NCBI GenBank assembly: GCA_902812415.1
Contig: CADDZJ010000009.1
Span: 1 to 64,000 of the forward strand
Reading direction: 5' to 3'
From: Acidobacteriota bacterium
GTDB taxonomy: Bacteria; Acidobacteriota; Terriglobia; UBA7540
Length of the DNA stretch: 64,000 nt
In this document: positions 30,812 to 53,098 of the stretch, in pieces
Layout of the letters: every line of letters starts with the position of its first letter
Position numbering within the stretch: the first letter of the stretch is position 1
Notes under the pieces: model-generated
What the model was told of the DNA's origin: nothing
The model's database searches: none
What the model saw: only the letters and a program-made list of their open reading frames with translations
Position numbers and translations under genes: made by a program

Positions 30812-32167
30812 CTATGGCTTGGGGCCTTTGGAGATGGGTGAGGTGGCGAGGTCGGCGGCAATCTCCTGAATCAGCTTCTGTTCCAGGCTTTGAATCACTT
30901 CGGGCGGGAGCGCCGGAGGCGACATGCGGAGGATCACCTTGTGAACAATGGAAGCGATGAGCGCAGAATCCACAGCGCCAGCATGGCTGGAAATCGCTGA
31001 GGCAGGTTCTGCGAATTCGGCCAGATTTGACAGCGATGAAAACGGAGAAGATTCCTCATACCCGAAGTCATTCTGAGAAGTTGCCTCGCTGCCGCTTGTC
31101 CCCGCGCTTCCTGCTATCTGGGACGCGGAAACCTGATCCGTTGTTGAATCGTGAAGAAAAAGCGATTGGACCATCTCTTCGTATTGCGACGTTGAAGCTG
31201 CCCCTTCCGCCGCAACGTCCGCCCTGAGAGGTTCGGCGGGCGGCCCGAGAGGCGTATCGGAAAACTCCCAGTCCGGCATCGGCGATCCTTCTGAATTTTG
31301 CTCCGTGGGTGGGAAGCTGACTGAAGCGGGAGTGGATGGTTGTTCCGCCAATCCGCGGGTTTCATTTCCTTCAGAATCTCCCTCCGGTAAGCTCCAAAGG
31401 TGCGCTTCATCAGACTGCGGAACCGGCTCGCCTTCCCATGGCGAATTCACAGGCAGTTCCGAAAGGGGCGATCGATTTGCCTGCTCAACCCGGACGAACG
31501 AAGAAGAACTTTCCGGCGCTCCTGCTCGGCTTTCGTTGACCGTCATAACTTCGGCGTCCTCAGCCCCAGGCCCCGGCGCACCTGGAGGAAAGGGCTGATG
31601 ACTTCCCGTGTCCATTGCCCAAGGAGATTCTTCAACAGGTTGAGGGGAAGGGAAGGGTTCACCAGGTTGCGGCTCTCCTGCCATCGCCCCGTAAACTGTG
31701 GGTTGCTGTTCAGCGAAAGGAATCTCCTGGGGGGCTTCAGACGGCCATGAATTTGAAATGCTCGAGGCTGGATTTATCTCACGAGATTGCTGCGCCTCAA
31801 ATTCGTTCGCATATCGAATGATGACGGAGGTCAATTCCTTACGATCGAAAGGCTTTTTGATGATTCCGTCAGCCCGAGAGCGTGAGCCCCGCTTCGGGTC
31901 ATACGGGTCGGTATCGCTGACCGCAAGGAGCACACGCACCCGGCTGAGTTCTGGCTGACGTTTTACGAATTCACAAACTTCGTAGCCGTCCTTTCCGGGC
32001 ATATCGACGTCTGCAAGCACCGCCAAGGGTCTGAGCGTGGAAAGCTTTTTCAGGGCTGCCATGCCGTTCCCTACCGCGACTACCTCGAACCCCTCCTGAG
32101 TCAGCATTTCCGTAGCGGTTCTTTGGTTCGTCAAATTATCGTCCGCGACCAAAATGGTTCCAGCCAT
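30812..32167 (-). CDS. Response regulator with REC domain, long acidic linker and conserved C-terminus
   Basis: The 451-residue protein starts with a CheY-like receiver domain (residues 3-120): acidic pair Asp9-Asp10, phospho-acceptor Asp53 in LADVDMPG and Lys in IIKKPFD. A long Ser/Pro/Glu-rich disordered stretch of about 250 residues follows. The last 50 residues form a helical segment (SIVHKVILRMSPPALPPEVI), similar in style to the end segments of other receiver proteins with a VxxxVxxxMSPxxL motif. There is no DNA-binding domain. ATG at 32167 is chosen because it gives the normal receiver N-terminus. No kinase gene is adjacent, so the partner is unknown. Confidence 0.85.
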   Translation of the reverse strand: MAGTILVADDNLTNQRTATEMLTQEGFEVVAVGNGMAALKKLSTLRPLAVLADVDMPGKDGYEVCEFVKRQPELSRVRVLLAVSDTDPYDPKRGSRSRADGIIKKPFDRKELTSVIIRYANEFEAQQSREINPASSISNSWPSEAPQEIPFAEQQPTVYGAMAGEPQPGEPFPSPQPVEESPWAMDTGSHQPFPPGAPGPGAEDAEVMTVNESRAGAPESSSSFVRVEQANRSPLSELPVNSPWEGEPVPQSDEAHLWSLPEGDSEGNETRGLAEQPSTPASVSFPPTEQNSEGSPMPDWEFSDTPLGPPAEPLRADVAAEGAASTSQYEEMVQSLFLHDSTTDQVSASQIAGSAGTSGSEATSQNDFGYEESSPFSSLSNLAEFAEPASAISSHAGAVDSALIASIVHKVILRMSPPALPPEVIQSLEQKLIQEIAADLATSPISKGPKP

Positions 32168-32833
32168 CGGTAAACCCTCTTGTTTATTAAATAATAACAT
32201 TCTATGGGTAACATTCATTAAATCATAAGTCAATCGACATGGACGCTTTGGAAGAAGCGTTACTTGACGAGGCACAGGAATAGTGATAATTCTTTAGTAA
32301 ATGGCGGTGTACGCTTCTCCCCTCGCATTGTCCGCCCTGATGTAACATTCCCCTCGATTTAAGACAACTGCTTTTTTCCGGCGGAGACGCCATGAGCCTT
32401 TGGTTTACCACATGGCATAAAAACAGCCCCCGCATTCCCGTAAAGCTTGTTCCCGCGAAAGCAAGAAGCGAGAATCCAGGCAGCCTCCGCCGTGTTCGTG
32501 GAGGACAATCGTCGTGGCGTAACACCCGTGGTGATTTTTCACACAAAAAGGTGGGCCGAAGACCCTTGGAACCCCTCGGAAGGACAGGCTGCTGGAGTTT
32601 TCCAGACGTATCTTAAAGATAATAAAAGGCTTACGTATTTAATTTGTTTGTTTTGATGTAATGAACAGAAAAGAATGGACTTAGCTGCAAAATCTGGAAA
32701 TTGTTCGTCATTTGTGGCGGGTAATGGTACTGAATTGAGCAGCTTGAAGCATGCAAGCGCACACCCGTTATGAGCGTGTGCGGCTTTCGATTCCAGACAA
32801 GCCGCGGACCTGAACAGCGGTCGGCGCTCCTAT

Positions 32834-32952
32834 TGAGAATTACAAATTATAGTGACAGCATTTTCTGTAGCGCCGGTCTCCTCACCGGCGTTTTTCGGCG
32901 CTGAGGACAGCGCCGCTACAGTCCGCGTTGTCACTATAATTTGTAAACCTCA
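32834..32952. repeat. Palindromic intergenic element, copy 1 (119 bp, near-complete)
   Basis: TTACAAATTATAGTGACA (32840-32857) is the exact reverse complement of TGTCACTATAATTTGTAA (32929-32946). Inside, CTGTAGCG (32865-32872) pairs with CGCTACAG (32914-32921), and outside, TGAG pairs with CTCA. The centre holds CGCCGGT-CTCC-TCACCGGCG. There is no reading frame inside. It resembles a miniature inverted-repeat element or REP-like unit. A related copy lies at about 52985-53098. Confidence 0.85.
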
Positions 32953-33098
32953 GTAGGTAGCGAAGAGCCGAAGGGCTCGCTCAGAATCGCAGGACTCGAA
33001 GTTTGGCTGAACCCCGTTTCGTTGGGGCGTGGATCTGAAACTGGGAAGGACAAAACCACGGATGGCGCCAGACGAGAAGGTATTGCGGCGGTTCACGA

Positions 33099-33104
33099 TA
33101 TAAT
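33099..33104 (+). promoter_or_regulatory. Candidate -10 box upstream of uvrA
   Basis: A perfect TATAAT lies 68 bases before the uvrA start. No matching -35 hexamer sits at the usual distance, so the call is tentative. No LexA-type box was recognised nearby. Confidence 0.25.
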
Positions 33105-33171
33105 AAAAGTTTGCGCGTCCTGACTTTCTGTCCGCAGAGACGTCCGTACTCGTTTTGACGCGTGTATCGCG

Positions 33172-36100
33172 ATGAATAAGATAGAAAACCAATCCGCGCT
33201 GCTCACTGAACCGTTCATCAGCGCATCTTCTCCCATATCGCGCATGGAGAGCTCTCCATCATCCGCCGCCGGGGGTCAGGAAGCCATCGTCGTCCGCGGG
33301 GCGCGCGTTCACAATCTCAGGAACATCGATTGCGAAATCCCCCACAATCAACTCACCGTAGTTACGGGAGTTTCAGGCTCAGGGAAATCCAGCCTGGCTT
33401 TCGACACCCTCTATGCCGAAGGTCAGCGCCGCTATGTGGAATCGCTTTCTGCCTACGCCCGGCAGTTTCTGGAGCGTATGGAAAAGCCCGATGCCGATGA
33501 GATCAGCGGCATTGCGCCAGCGGTCGCCATCCGTCAGAAAAACTCCACGCGCAACCCTCGCTCCACCGTGGCAACGGCAACAGAAATCTATGATTACCTC
33601 CGTCTGCTCTTTGCCCGAGTGGGCGTGACGATCTGCCCGAAATGCCGTGAAGTGGTGCGGAAAGATACGATCGATGAGATTGCCGATCGGATTCTGGGCA
33701 TGGAGACAGGCCGTCGTTTCCAGGTGATGTTTCAACTCAGTCCTGCGCCGCCCGCCGCACAACCCTCACCGGCCCCTAAATCGGCGGACGATTTTGACAT
33801 TCCCGATGATTCATTCAATCATTCCGATGCGATCGCGGAATCCTTCTCTTCAAACCTGAAGGTTGAGAAACCTCTTTCATCGCGCGCGCAAAAAAGCGCG
33901 AGGAAGCAGCGATCTCGCAGGGAAGGGGCTTCTGCCACAGGAACTGCCATCCCAGTTCAAGGTCCTCAATCGCCTGATGAGCCTACAAAGCAGCGCCTGT
34001 TCTCTCTGCGCCAGCATGGCTTCAATCGTCTTTATCAGCGCGGGCGCATCTTTGAATTCTCGGTGCCGGAATCCTTGCTGGAAATCGACTTCGCAAAACC
34101 GGTTTTTGTGCTTGTGGATCGTCTTGCAATCAGTTCCGAAATCCGCCAGCGCCTGATCGATTCCATCGAGCTTTGTTTCCGCGAAGCTGGAGAGGCCATT
34201 CTGGAGTTTCCCGCATCCGAGCCGCAGTCCTCACCGGAGCGACTTGTCTTCAACGAGCAGTTCAAATGCAAAAAATGTGGAACCACTTTTCAGGAGCCTG
34301 AACCGCGACTTTTTTCGTTCAATAATCCTTTTGGAGCCTGCCCGCGTTGCCAGGGATTCGGGAACACCATCGCTCTCGATTTAAATCTGGTTATCCCCGA
34401 TAAAAATAAAAGCCTCGAAGAGGGCGCCATCGAACCCTGGACCAAGCCGCGTTATCGCGAGTTCTTCAGCTCTCTGAAGCGGCTGGCGCGGTCGCGCGGC
34501 ATCCCTCTGGATGCGCCCTACCATCAACTGACGGAGGCGCAAAAGCAATGGCTGCTTGAAGGAGATGAAGACTTCATCGGCATTCGCGGCTTCTTTGAGG
34601 CGCTTGAGCATAAAAAGTACAAGCTACACGTGCGGGTCTTTCTCAGCCGGTATCGCGGCTACACCCTTTGTCCTGAATGCCGCGGCGGGCGGTTGCGCCA
34701 GGAAGCGTTGAACGTGCAGATTGACGGAAAGAACATCACTAAAGTTTGCCAGATGTCGATCCGCGAAGCTCGCGAATTTTTTGCCAGCCTCCGTTTTTCT
34801 CCCGCTCAGATGACCGTGGCGGAGAAGCTGCTGGAAGAAATATCCTCGCGATTGCGGTTTCTGGATGAAGTGGGCCTGGAGTATCTCACTCTGGATCGCC
34901 TGGCTTCCACGCTGTCGGGGGGCGAGTCGCAACGGATTCAGCTTGCCACGTCACTCGGATCGAATCTGGTGGGCGCGCTTTACGTATTGGATGAGCCTTC
35001 TATCGGTCTTCATGCTCGCGATACCGACCGGCTGATTCTTATTCTCAAGCGCCTGCGCGACCTCGGCAACACCATCCTGGTGGTGGAGCACGATCCGGCC
35101 ATGATGCGGCAAGCCGATAAGATTCTGGACCTCGGACCCGGAGCCGGCGAGCATGGCGGGCGCATTGTTTATGCTGGAGACCTTGCCGGGTTGCTGAGAG
35201 ATTCGCATTCCCTTACCGGTCGCTACCTGGCTGGAGAGCTCAGCGTTCCCCTTCCTCACCTCCGGCGTAAGCCTGAAAAAGGTTGGCTCAAAATTCATGG
35301 CGCGCGCCAGCATAATTTGAAATCCATTGAAGTCGCAATTCCCCTCGGGACCTTGACCTGCATCAGCGGCGTTTCCGGTTCAGGGAAATCGACGTTGGTG
35401 CACGATGTTCTTTATAACGCCCTCGTCTCGCGGCGCGGCGTTGCGGCGCCGCGAGCTGAATACGACCGGCTCGAAGGCGACGCAGCGCTGGCCGATGTCG
35501 TCCTGGTTGACCAATCGCCGCTCGGTCGCACACCGCGCTCGAATCCCGTGACCTACATCAAAGCCTTTGATGAGATTCGAAGCCTGTTCGCCGCGACGCC
35601 CGAGGCGCACAAGCGTGGCTATACAGCCGGCACTTTTTCCTTCAACGTGCCCAGCGGGCGTTGCGAAGTTTGCCAGGGCGACGGAACCGTTACCATCGAA
35701 ATGCAGTTTCTGGCCGACGTTGAACTGATCTGCGAAGAGTGTCGCGGCCAGCGCTTCAAACCGAGCGTGCTGGAGGTTCGTTATAAGGGGAAGAATATCG
35801 CCGAAATTCTGCAAATGACGGTCCGCGAAGCTTTAGCGTTTTTTGCCGGCATACCGAAGGTCACCAGCAAACTGCACATTCTGGAAGAAGTCGGACTGGG
35901 ATATTTGCGGCTGGGGCAATCTGCCACGACGCTTTCCGGCGGCGAAGCGCAGCGAGTTCGGTTGGCCGCTCACCTGGCGCAGCAGACCAGCGCCAATACG
36001 CTCTTCATCTTTGACGAGCCCACCACAGGATTGCACTTTGACGATATCAACAAGCTCCTGACCGCTTTCAGGAAGTTGATTGATTCCGGCTCAACGGTCC

Positions 36101-36276
36101 TGATCATCGAGCACAACCTCGATGTTTTGAAGTGCGCCGATTGGATCATCGATCTGGGCCCTGAAGGCGGGGATGCAGGGGGATATGTGGTCGCCGCGGG
36201 TCCGCCTGAAGTGATTGCCAGGCAGCCCGCGTCTCACACGGGCCGATTTTTAGCGCCATTGCTGGCAAAACCTTAA
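33172..36276 (+). CDS. uvrA: Excinuclease ABC subunit UvrA
   Basis: UvrA is the damage-recognition ATPase of nucleotide excision repair. The 1034-residue protein has two ABC modules (Walker [15 protein letters not shown] near residue 66 and [16 protein letters not shown] near 730), ABC signatures [13 protein letters not shown] and [16 protein letters not shown], and two zinc modules: CKKCGTTF...CPRC and CEVCQGDG...CEEC. An extra low-complexity segment of about 80 residues (roughly 195-275, Pro/Ala/Ser then Lys/Arg) lies between signature domain I and the first zinc module, near the UvrB-binding domain. ATG at 33172 gives a 35-residue leader before the conserved start, and an ATG at about residue 25 is an alternative. 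Confidence 0.97.
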
Positions 36277-40665: not shown

Positions 40666-41143
40666 GAGGGTCATTCGCGATTCGGACGAATTGGCGCAAC
40701 CCCCGCTTCGATGATCCCTCGCAGGTTGCTGAAGAACTCTCGCGGCCTGTCATTCTGACGCTGAGCGACAGCGAAGCGGAAGAATCCCTGTATTTCGGAC
40801 TCAGGTATGTTCCGCGAAGCCTCCTTGCACTTGCAGGATCAAGCCAATGCAAGGATTCTTCCTTCGTTTCACTCAGAGCCTGTCCTGAGCGAGGCGAAGG
40901 AACCGCCTCCGGCTCCTCAGAATGACATCTTTCGAAACTTTTCAGCCATCCGTCAGCCGCTCCCCCCACAAGCAGAAAGAAAGCGTCTTGATCATCATCG
41001 AGGCTTTATGAAACGGAGAATCGCTCGCTTGACATGTCTTTCTGGCCCTCGTACACTCAAATCAAATTCATCAGGGCTTCGCGTGCGCCTGATCCTGCCG
41101 TCGATCTCCATGCTCTTCTGAAGGAAGCCCCAGGGAGGCGGTT
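40666..41143. other. Intergenic region after metH, rich in inverted repeats
   Basis: No gene is supported. Most of 40748-40927 is a repeat element with inverted ends. The remainder up to 41143 presumably carries the promoter of the next gene (TTGACA at 41029-41034). I could not place a convincing -10 at normal spacing. Confidence 0.45.
40748..40927. repeat. 180-bp element with 11-bp perfect inverted ends
   Basis: TGTCATTCTGA at 40748-40758 is the exact reverse complement of TCAGAATGACA at 40917-40927. Further inside, GGAAGAATCCCTG near 40779 and CAAGGATTCTTCC near 40850 are near-perfect inverted mates, so the whole unit is roughly palindromic. It has no coding frame. The left half recurs at 5095-5180, and the TCAGAATGACA end recurs near 63188. 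It looks like a non-autonomous mobile or REP-type element. Confidence 0.75.
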
Positions 41144-51976: not shown

Positions 51977-52956
51977 CTTCCTACCGCGTGCTGGTCGTCA
52001 CCAATCTCTGGCCCTACCCTGCCGACCCCGGCTACGGAAGTTTCGTCAAGGCGCAGATGGAATCACTCCGCCCGCTGGGCGTGGATTATGACCTTCTGTT
52101 CATCAACGGCCGGGAATCCCGCTGGAGTTACCTGCGCGGCATATGGGATTTACGCCGACGGCTGCGCGAGAAACAGTATGACCTGATCCATGCTCATTTC
52201 GGGCTTTCCGGCTGGGTGGCGCGCTTGCAGCTTCAAGCGCCGGTGGTGGTTTCCTTCATGGGCGATGACGTGCTGGGGCGATTCAAGCGCAGCGGCCGCA
52301 TCTCACTTTATGGGCGATTGCTCCAGGCGTCCAGCTTCATCCTGGCGCGGCTTGTGACGTCGGTAATCGTCAAAAGCGATGAAATGAAACGCGCGCTTCG
52401 GCTGCCCGCAGCGCTCGTGATTCCAAACGGAGTGGATCTTGATCTATTCCGCCCCATGGAAACATCCGCCGCCCGATGCATGCTGGGCCTGGATGAAAAG
52501 AAAAAGTACGTCCTGTTCCCGTATAATCCACAGGAAGAAAGAAAGCGATTTGACCTGATCGAGTCGGCAGTAAGCCTGGCGCGCAAGGAGGCGCCGGAAC
52601 TGGAAATCCTTCACGCGCGCGGAGTGCCGCGGGAGCGGATGCCGCTTTACATGAATGCAGCCGACATGCTGGTGCTGGCCTCGCTGGCAGAGGGCTCTCC
52701 CAATGCTGTTAAAGAAGCGATGGCGGTCAATCTTCCGGTAATTACGGTGGATGTGGGCGATGCCGTCCGGTTGATCGGACCAACGGAGGGCTGCTATCTT
52801 GTGCCGCGCGAGGCCCGAGCAATCGCTGAAAAAATCGTCATGGTCTGCCGGAGCGGCCAGCGCACTCGCGGGCGAGAATGGATCGAACAACTCTCGATGG
52901 AGCGCACTGCCAAGCGGGTGGTCATGGTTTACGCGGAGGTCGCCCGAAGAAAATAG
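51973..52956 (+). CDS. Glycosyltransferase family 4
   Basis: The 327-residue GT-B enzyme begins YRVLVVTNLWPYPADPGYG and shows DLIHAHFGLSGWVA, IPNGVDLDLF and the donor-site motif EGSPNAVKEAMA near residue 240. The ATG at 51973 overlaps the methyltransferase stop (ATGA). The longer frame upstream is a shadow. Sugars are not assignable. It is followed directly by a palindromic repeat. Confidence 0.92.
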   Translation: MTSYRVLVVTNLWPYPADPGYGSFVKAQMESLRPLGVDYDLLFINGRESRWSYLRGIWDLRRRLREKQYDLIHAHFGLSGWVARLQLQAPVVVSFMGDDVLGRFKRSGRISLYGRLLQASSFILARLVTSVIVKSDEMKRALRLPAALVIPNGVDLDLFRPMETSAARCMLGLDEKKKYVLFPYNPQEERKRFDLIESAVSLARKEAPELEILHARGVPRERMPLYMNAADMLVLASLAEGSPNAVKEAMAVNLPVITVDVGDAVRLIGPTEGCYLVPREARAIAEKIVMVCRSGQRTRGREWIEQLSMERTAKRVVMVYAEVARRK

Positions 52957-52984
52957 CGGAGATTGATTATCGCGCTGATACGAG

Positions 52985-53098
52985 CTGTAGCGGCGCTGTC
53001 CCTTCACTTCGTTTAGGGCAGGCTTTCAGCGTCGAAAACGCCGGTAAGGACACCGGCGCTCCAGGGAATGCCGTCATGTTAATTTGTACTTCTCAATA
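52985..53098. repeat. Palindromic intergenic element, copy 2 (inverted orientation)
   Basis: In reverse complement this copy matches the 32834-32952 element: 25 of 30 bases at the arm ending 53098, and nearly all of the GCGTCGAAAACGCCGGT and CTGTAGCGGCGCTGTCC blocks. A 24-base insertion (about 53002-53025) interrupts the left half, and the far AT-rich arm is not conserved. It ends two bases before the next start codon. Confidence 0.75.

Follow-up and report, generated by a model that had tools for sequence, protein, structure and literature searches.

Among the very small mobile DNAs of bacteria, MITEs of the IS630 type and REPINs dependent on RAYT are both familiar classes, which have been treated separately; RAYT enzymes are thought to recognise inverted pairs of GTAG hairpins. 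The acidobacterial element described here has likenesses to both classes. According to the cited passages, RUP of Streptococcus pneumoniae is an IS630-Spn1-dependent MITE of 107 bp and is like this element in its IS630-type ends, TA target, number of copies (about a hundred) and tight fold (PMC2229807, PMC3049150). The Correia/NEMIS elements of Neisseria resemble it as small MITEs whose ends are 24 bp long and whose termini carry TA (passages of PMC2229807), and are called IS630-derived in PMC2817692 (passage cited). In contrast to the acidobacterial element, GTAG hairpins are unmentioned in the RUP passages of PMC2229807 and PMC3049150, and a REPIN cargo is undescribed in the passages cited for Correia/NEMIS; the likeness is in both cases one by description. 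Unlike that of RUP, the likely IS630 partner of the acidobacterial element was seen in relatives only. REPINs and GTAG REPs share with its interior the GTAG head, the short hairpin, the inverted pair and a RAYT gene with the same REPs on either side (as far as described in passages of PMC3116915, PMC2817692 and PMC3733652); unlike ordinary REPINs, however, the acidobacterial one is enclosed by IS630-type ends, and the whole unit has a 2-bp target duplication. For acidobacteria, TIR-flanked tyrosine transposase genes (“TIRtron”) have been reported, as well as a Koribacter repeat family composed of such TIRs (both in the passages cited of PMC3733652). No MITE with a REPIN inside appeared in titles and abstract openings of a literature lying outside most subscription papers and all preprints, which is weak evidence.

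The window, i.e. the whole stretch of 64,000 nucleotides that was analysed, contains the element between a response-regulator gene (30812-32275, minus strand) and uvrA (33172-36273, plus strand). The element is very probably a non-autonomous transposon of the IS630/Tc1-mariner type (a MITE) that carries a REPIN as its cargo, on which an IS630 transposase would act in trans; this reading is based on the ends, the 2-bp target duplication and the partner enzyme in relatives. Judged by sequence, the MITE part would belong to an already known kind, and its nesting with a REPIN would be the new feature. The parts are as follows:

32831-32832, no strand: left TA of the target duplication (sequence; flanking bases counted over 84 copies; uninterrupted paralogous repeats compared for other copies)
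32833-32953, plus strand: entire element, very probably an IS630-type MITE enclosing a REPIN
32833-32857, plus strand: left terminal inverted repeat, TTGAGAATTACAAATTATAGTGACA (18-bp core repeated across the genome; resembles IS630-family ends in relatives)
32867-32890, plus strand: REP-A, GTAG and hairpin CGCCGGTC TCCT CACCGGCG (sequence)
32891-32895, plus strand: linker TTTTT separating the hairpins (sequence)
32896-32919, minus strand: REP-B, inverted, GTAG and hairpin CGGCGCTG TCCT CAGCGCCG in minus-strand reading
32929-32953, minus strand: right terminal inverted repeat, CTGAGGTTTACAAATTATAGTGACA on the minus strand
32954-32955, no strand: right TA of the target duplication (sequence; flank statistics; empty sites)
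52953-53097, minus strand: second copy of the family, decayed (model match, E = 1.1e-7, E-values being rough)

The first-pass annotation had described a non-coding palindrome with exact 18-bp arms at 32834-32952. The palindrome is real: its arms (32840-32857 and 32929-32946) are perfect reverse complements, the 18-bp arm had two matches in the window at up to 3 mismatches (0.01 expected from shuffles), and the RNA fold of the palindrome reached −65.2 kcal/mol, the mean of the shuffles being −27.9 (z = −10.5). The sole inverted repeat of at least 40 nt in the window (14-nt seed) comprises 32829-32890 and 32896-32957 with 77% complementarity. No listed open reading frame of at least 100 amino acids overlaps the palindrome, and the Rfam scan of the whole window gave no family at gathering score. 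The limits had to be extended by one base on each side: as set from the flanks of other copies, the element spans 32833-32953 (121 bp) with TA outside both ends, and the whole unit folds into a single hairpin. Terminal inverted repeats, the non-coding interior and a size inside the range of about 70-300 bp are features of the MITE type. The second copy that had been claimed exists at 52953-53097, but is decayed and far from identical: the loop of one hairpin is enlarged and one end is badly eroded.

The genome searched for further copies was the window's own draft assembly (4,844,903 bases in 261 contigs). With the best 40 of 196 candidates scored, BLAST of the 119-bp palindrome gave 82 matches, equivalent to at least 40 places, hit once per strand, plus two fragments. 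The 18-bp arm had 63 + 65 = 128 matches at up to 2 mismatches, its reversed control none. A covariance model of 25 family members (window copy included) matched 149 times at no fewer than 98 distinct places, with the best 150 of 2878 candidates scored and more copies possible. Among these 98 places there may be REP pairs whose ends are beyond recognition; at C189:3444-3562, for example, the hairpins are present with no end within 4 mismatches.

The outer arms are the transposon ends, with the consensus YTGAGnnTTACAAATTATAGTGACA. Of 84 distinct copies with both ends from the own and related genomes, 63 have TA on both sides; in the other 21, one side or both deviate from TA, which is taken as decay. 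Immediately outside TA, 81 of the 84 have a pyrimidine (C or T) on the left side and 83 a purine (A or G) on the right side; these flanking bases were absent from the search pattern behind the statistics. For a comparison with uninterrupted paralogous repeats, the flanks of copies were joined minus one flanking dinucleotide. Eleven alignments spanned the junction, and six were examined, one per copy (of the other five, one is the L010 site on an overlapping locus and four involve neighbouring element sequence, L070 and L071). After dropping one dinucleotide, the junction was gapless in five of the six copies (L092, L010, L023, L027, L004), the alignment of the sixth, L029, being too noisy. Since L023 and L027 are inserted at the identical point in two copies of one repeat, the five sites represent at least four events. 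The empty copies carry TA (L077, for both L023 and L027), GA (L013), CA (L020) or TG (L004); they belong to paralogous repeats with a likeness of 71-83% rather than to orthologous sites. The duplication is 2 bp long. That the duplicated dinucleotide is TA is inferred mainly from the filled copies and this length, TA itself being visible in one empty copy only, L077. Open-frame spans over 81 joined sites were too variable to serve as a sign of interrupted genes. Another repeat family, GGGATTCTTCGC...CTCAGAATGAC, occurs at 32957-33000 and 40724-40861 of the window and at L010, L020 and L029; its repeats are insertion targets for some of the MITEs.

In view of the TA duplication, the partner enzyme was sought in the IS630 family. 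Among 29 new loci with PF13358 genes from 39 genomes of the host family, inverted ends of the element's type were present on both sides of the gene in L187 and L189 and on one side in L190; the remaining 26 loci had only weak, scattered resemblance to the ends, or none. The product of L189 belongs to the IS630 family (NF033545 and PF13358). Its gene lies in two overlapping frames, both matching NF033545. With the N-terminal frame of L189 as protein query, matches were obtained in 19 of the 39 genomes and 30 loci were tested for ends: an IS630-family gene was accompanied by both matching ends in L202, L203 and L205 and by one in L204, L206, L207, L213, L216 and L223, the ends at these nine loci deviating at 0-4 of 18 positions. 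L202, L203 and L204 are the places of L189, L187 and L190, respectively, and L223 belongs to the genus of the window. A transposase with matching ends, for which the first-pass annotation had suggested a search, was found in relatives (with both ends at three loci), but not in the window's draft genome, where the protein search with the L189 N-terminus detected no member of the matching IS630 clade; G003, a genome of the same genus whose copies are the nearest among the relatives, had a single match to this query (28% identity). The window genome's own IS630 genes were rejected as partners, their ends being different. In pattern scans of the 39 family genomes, a collection of named genomes and 396 genomes of the phylum, an end with a partner about 1 kb away was also sought; the partners found gave short elements only (up to 309 bp), and several ends had no partner. 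Because the end pattern was present at up to 1 mismatch in just 3 of the 396 phylum genomes, this form of the ends is narrow; in the named genomes, Acidobacteria subdivision 13 bacterium RH2 MAG17b supplied 24 of the 28 stretches given by the scan. The splitting of the IS630 gene into two overlapping frames was seen in three genomes (L189:1465-1490; also L187 and L190), and the frame overlap of L189 holds two runs of A, comparable to programmed frameshifting.

The interior consists of two inverted units, each with GTAG followed by an 8-bp hairpin; the first hairpin has the family form CGCCGGTG TCCT CACCGGCG, and the second reads CGGCGCTG TCCT CAGCGCCG (the first arm of REP-A in the window copy has one change from CGCCGGTG). 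On the evidence of these letters, the interior is of the REPIN design, with GTAG heads and inverted pairs as in the cited passages of PMC3733652, PMC3116915 and PMC2817692. The REP-like nature that had been offered as an alternative to a MITE is half right: the interior is a REPIN, but the either/or does not stand, since the REPIN is nested in the MITE. Taken from the first hairpin, a 17-bp stretch has 68 exact matches in the own genome, 39 of them at most 90 bp from an end among the ends listed and 29 not. By hand comparison, 13 of these 29 sit under model matches and may be decayed elements; of the 16 left over, some lie at contig ends and some are perhaps further decayed. Free REP pairs occur at L073:61-127 and L073:4037-4103 (C132) as well as beside the RAYT gene in L067 (C198), and the linker has about 17 bases in the free pairs of the genome versus 5 in the element.

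The RAYT gene at L067:270-725 (C198; NF047646 at 101.9 bits, cut-off 80) is one of six NF047646 matches in the window genome, of which two were examined (C198, C120). It has GTAG hairpins on both sides, the upstream one being exactly CGCCGGTG TCCT CACCGGCG; in this genome (G000) the RAYT-flanking hairpin matches REP-A, not REP-B. The second gene (C120; L068:1486-1687 and L068:1699-2136) has the hairpin CGGCGATC TGT GATCGCCG. In G001, a member of the same genus, the RAYT gene of L274 is flanked by CGGCGCTC TAT GAGCGTCG and CGGCGCTC TAT GAGCGCCG; REP-B of the two aligned G001 elements is CGGCGCTC TAT GAGCGTCG, as beside this gene, and REP-A has no match. The RAYT proteins that match the G000 and G001 elements are 54.8% identical. 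The RAYT protein of L285 in G003 is 57.5% identical to that of G000, and its gene has TCCT-loop hairpins with other stems. At the RAYT loci examined in G002, G003, G006, G010, G016, G019, G030 and G036 (a subset of the RAYT genes), no hairpin equals the element interior. Compared in this way, the interior appears to track the REP of its host in two genomes and to come near it in a third, and it agrees with none of the RAYT hairpins examined in the others; either REPs were captured repeatedly, or there was a single capture and both pools have changed afterwards. As a separate observation, the RAYT gene of L068 has its own distinct REP type, GTAGCGGCGATCTGTGATCGCCG, and a different GTAG hairpin type, e.g. 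CGCGGACCGC..GCGGTCCGCG or CGCAGACCTC..GAGGTCTGCG, flanks several RAYT genes; loci with different hairpin types are L254 (G026), L255 (G006), L256 (G007), L258 (G029), L261 (G012), L268 (G028) and L270 (G011).

Within the one genus, the elements of G000 carry a TCCT-loop hairpin and those of G001 a TAT-loop hairpin, each of the type beside the own RAYT gene, between homologous ends. It is possible, if doubtful, that the IS630 ends serve as a shuttle that repeatedly picks up the current REPIN of the host RAYT; the element would then take part in two mobility systems, by a double-strand DDE route via the ends and a single-strand RAYT route via the hairpins.

In the relatives, the 119-bp sequence had a match in 36 of 61 genomes (own genome counted), and both ends together with both hairpins were seen in 11 genomes of 8 genera and one family (G000-G003, G006, G010, G016, G018, G019, G030 and G036). 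From 30 chosen loci 32 elements were extracted, of which 25 were aligned; the seven omitted (L021:2905, L123:2798, L123:6540, L118, L232, L239, L243) were mostly extra copies from genomes already represented, and L123:2798 also had a damaged hairpin. In the 25 aligned elements the hairpin stems vary between genomes yet remain paired. For REP-A, 196 of 200 cells are paired versus a shuffled mean of 173 (maximum 186), and for REP-B 193 of 200 versus 170 (maximum 181); these stem counts lean somewhat towards the observed value, as the best loop length was chosen for the real arms only, and the REP-B rows G003_L123 and G010_L249 were misread with 6/8 each. For the outer arms, 86.5% of the cells are paired versus 83.2% after shuffling, with 27 versus 16.5 two-sided changes; such changes fall on 8 outer-arm pairs, a number within the ordinary range of shuffles (mean 6.6). 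The first-pass annotation had set against its proposal of a MITE family a state of only two copies with neither compensatory changes nor a duplication: what was found instead is a family at 98 or more model places in a genome-wide search, with a target duplication of 2 bp, TA on both sides in the majority of copies, stems paired above shuffles and IS630 genes with matching ends in relatives.

The same matched changes in the REP-A and REP-B stems, together with the five T directly after REP-A, could be taken to mean that the element persists chiefly because of a role in RNA or DNA (as terminator, RNA processing site or protein binding site) and that its mobility is past. This explanation is unlikely: matched stems are equally expected from a REP-recognising enzyme or from repeated capture of intact REPs, the ends too vary in a matched fashion, as expected of transposase sites, and the terminator scan of 32250-33250 left the site uncalled.

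Similar ends without such a REP pair are found in L145 and L150 (groundwater MAGs) and L151, and in L161 and L164 of another family, and the REP pair is found without the ends at loci of G014, G011, G022, G007, G008, G034 and G032. Because similar ends hold other interiors and hairpin pairs occur without ends, the two parts are separable. This bears on the idea that RAYT moves all 121 bp as a single REPIN of unusual length, in which the outer arms would be merely an extra paired stem. The folding of the entire unit as a single hairpin, the REP heads and hairpins inside it and a RAYT gene with such REPs in the genome agree with this idea; it is nevertheless very improbable, being at odds with the 2-bp duplication and YTAR preference and with the enclosure of other interiors by similar ends, and largely contradicted by the like ends on IS630-family elements. 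In addition, 67 RAYT loci from the family (a subset of the RAYT genes; L067 and L281 are one place) had no end within 3 mismatches, and L067 and L068 none within 4. That the ends come from a TIRtron, a RAYT-type gene with long terminal repeats instead of REPs, is hardly credible in view of the same 67 loci and of the ends on IS630-family genes, even though such genes and the Koribacter TIR family are on record (PMC3733652, passages cited). Longer relatives with similar ends were observed at L119:2969-3244 (276 bp) and L151:7571-7879 (309 bp); in both, a GGGGTGAGGGG stretch faces a C-rich one, and that of L119 has a REP pair in addition.

For the IS630-type MITE with REPIN cargo, the following course is proposed. 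An IS630-family transposase acting in trans would bind the two ends of about 25 bp, excise the element and insert it at a YTAR target with duplication of TA, the preference and the 2-bp length being those observed in the copies; the entire 121-bp unit, hairpins included, moves as one, as is evident from the empty sites. The REPIN was most likely captured from the REPIN pool of the host and would have been carried by the MITE thereafter. As the partner was found in relatives but not in the draft genome, the family of the window genome is presumably either stranded or served by an unassembled IS630 copy. The nesting, which was seen in 11 genomes of 8 genera and at high copy in some, offers a natural test of whether the spread of REPINs needs RAYT, of how REPINs get to new sites and of whether the cargo of a MITE is chosen or accidental; copies inserted at TA can be distinguished from those moved by RAYT and could give a second clock for REPIN evolution.

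Each end of the window copy also contains a perfect, outward-pointing TATAAT hexamer (32935-32940 and the mirror site within 32840-32857), which was left uncalled by the promoter scan. The right-hand hexamer faces uvrA at a distance of about 230 bp, and the outward TATAAT might form a promoter, as reported for Correia elements (passage of PMC3049150).
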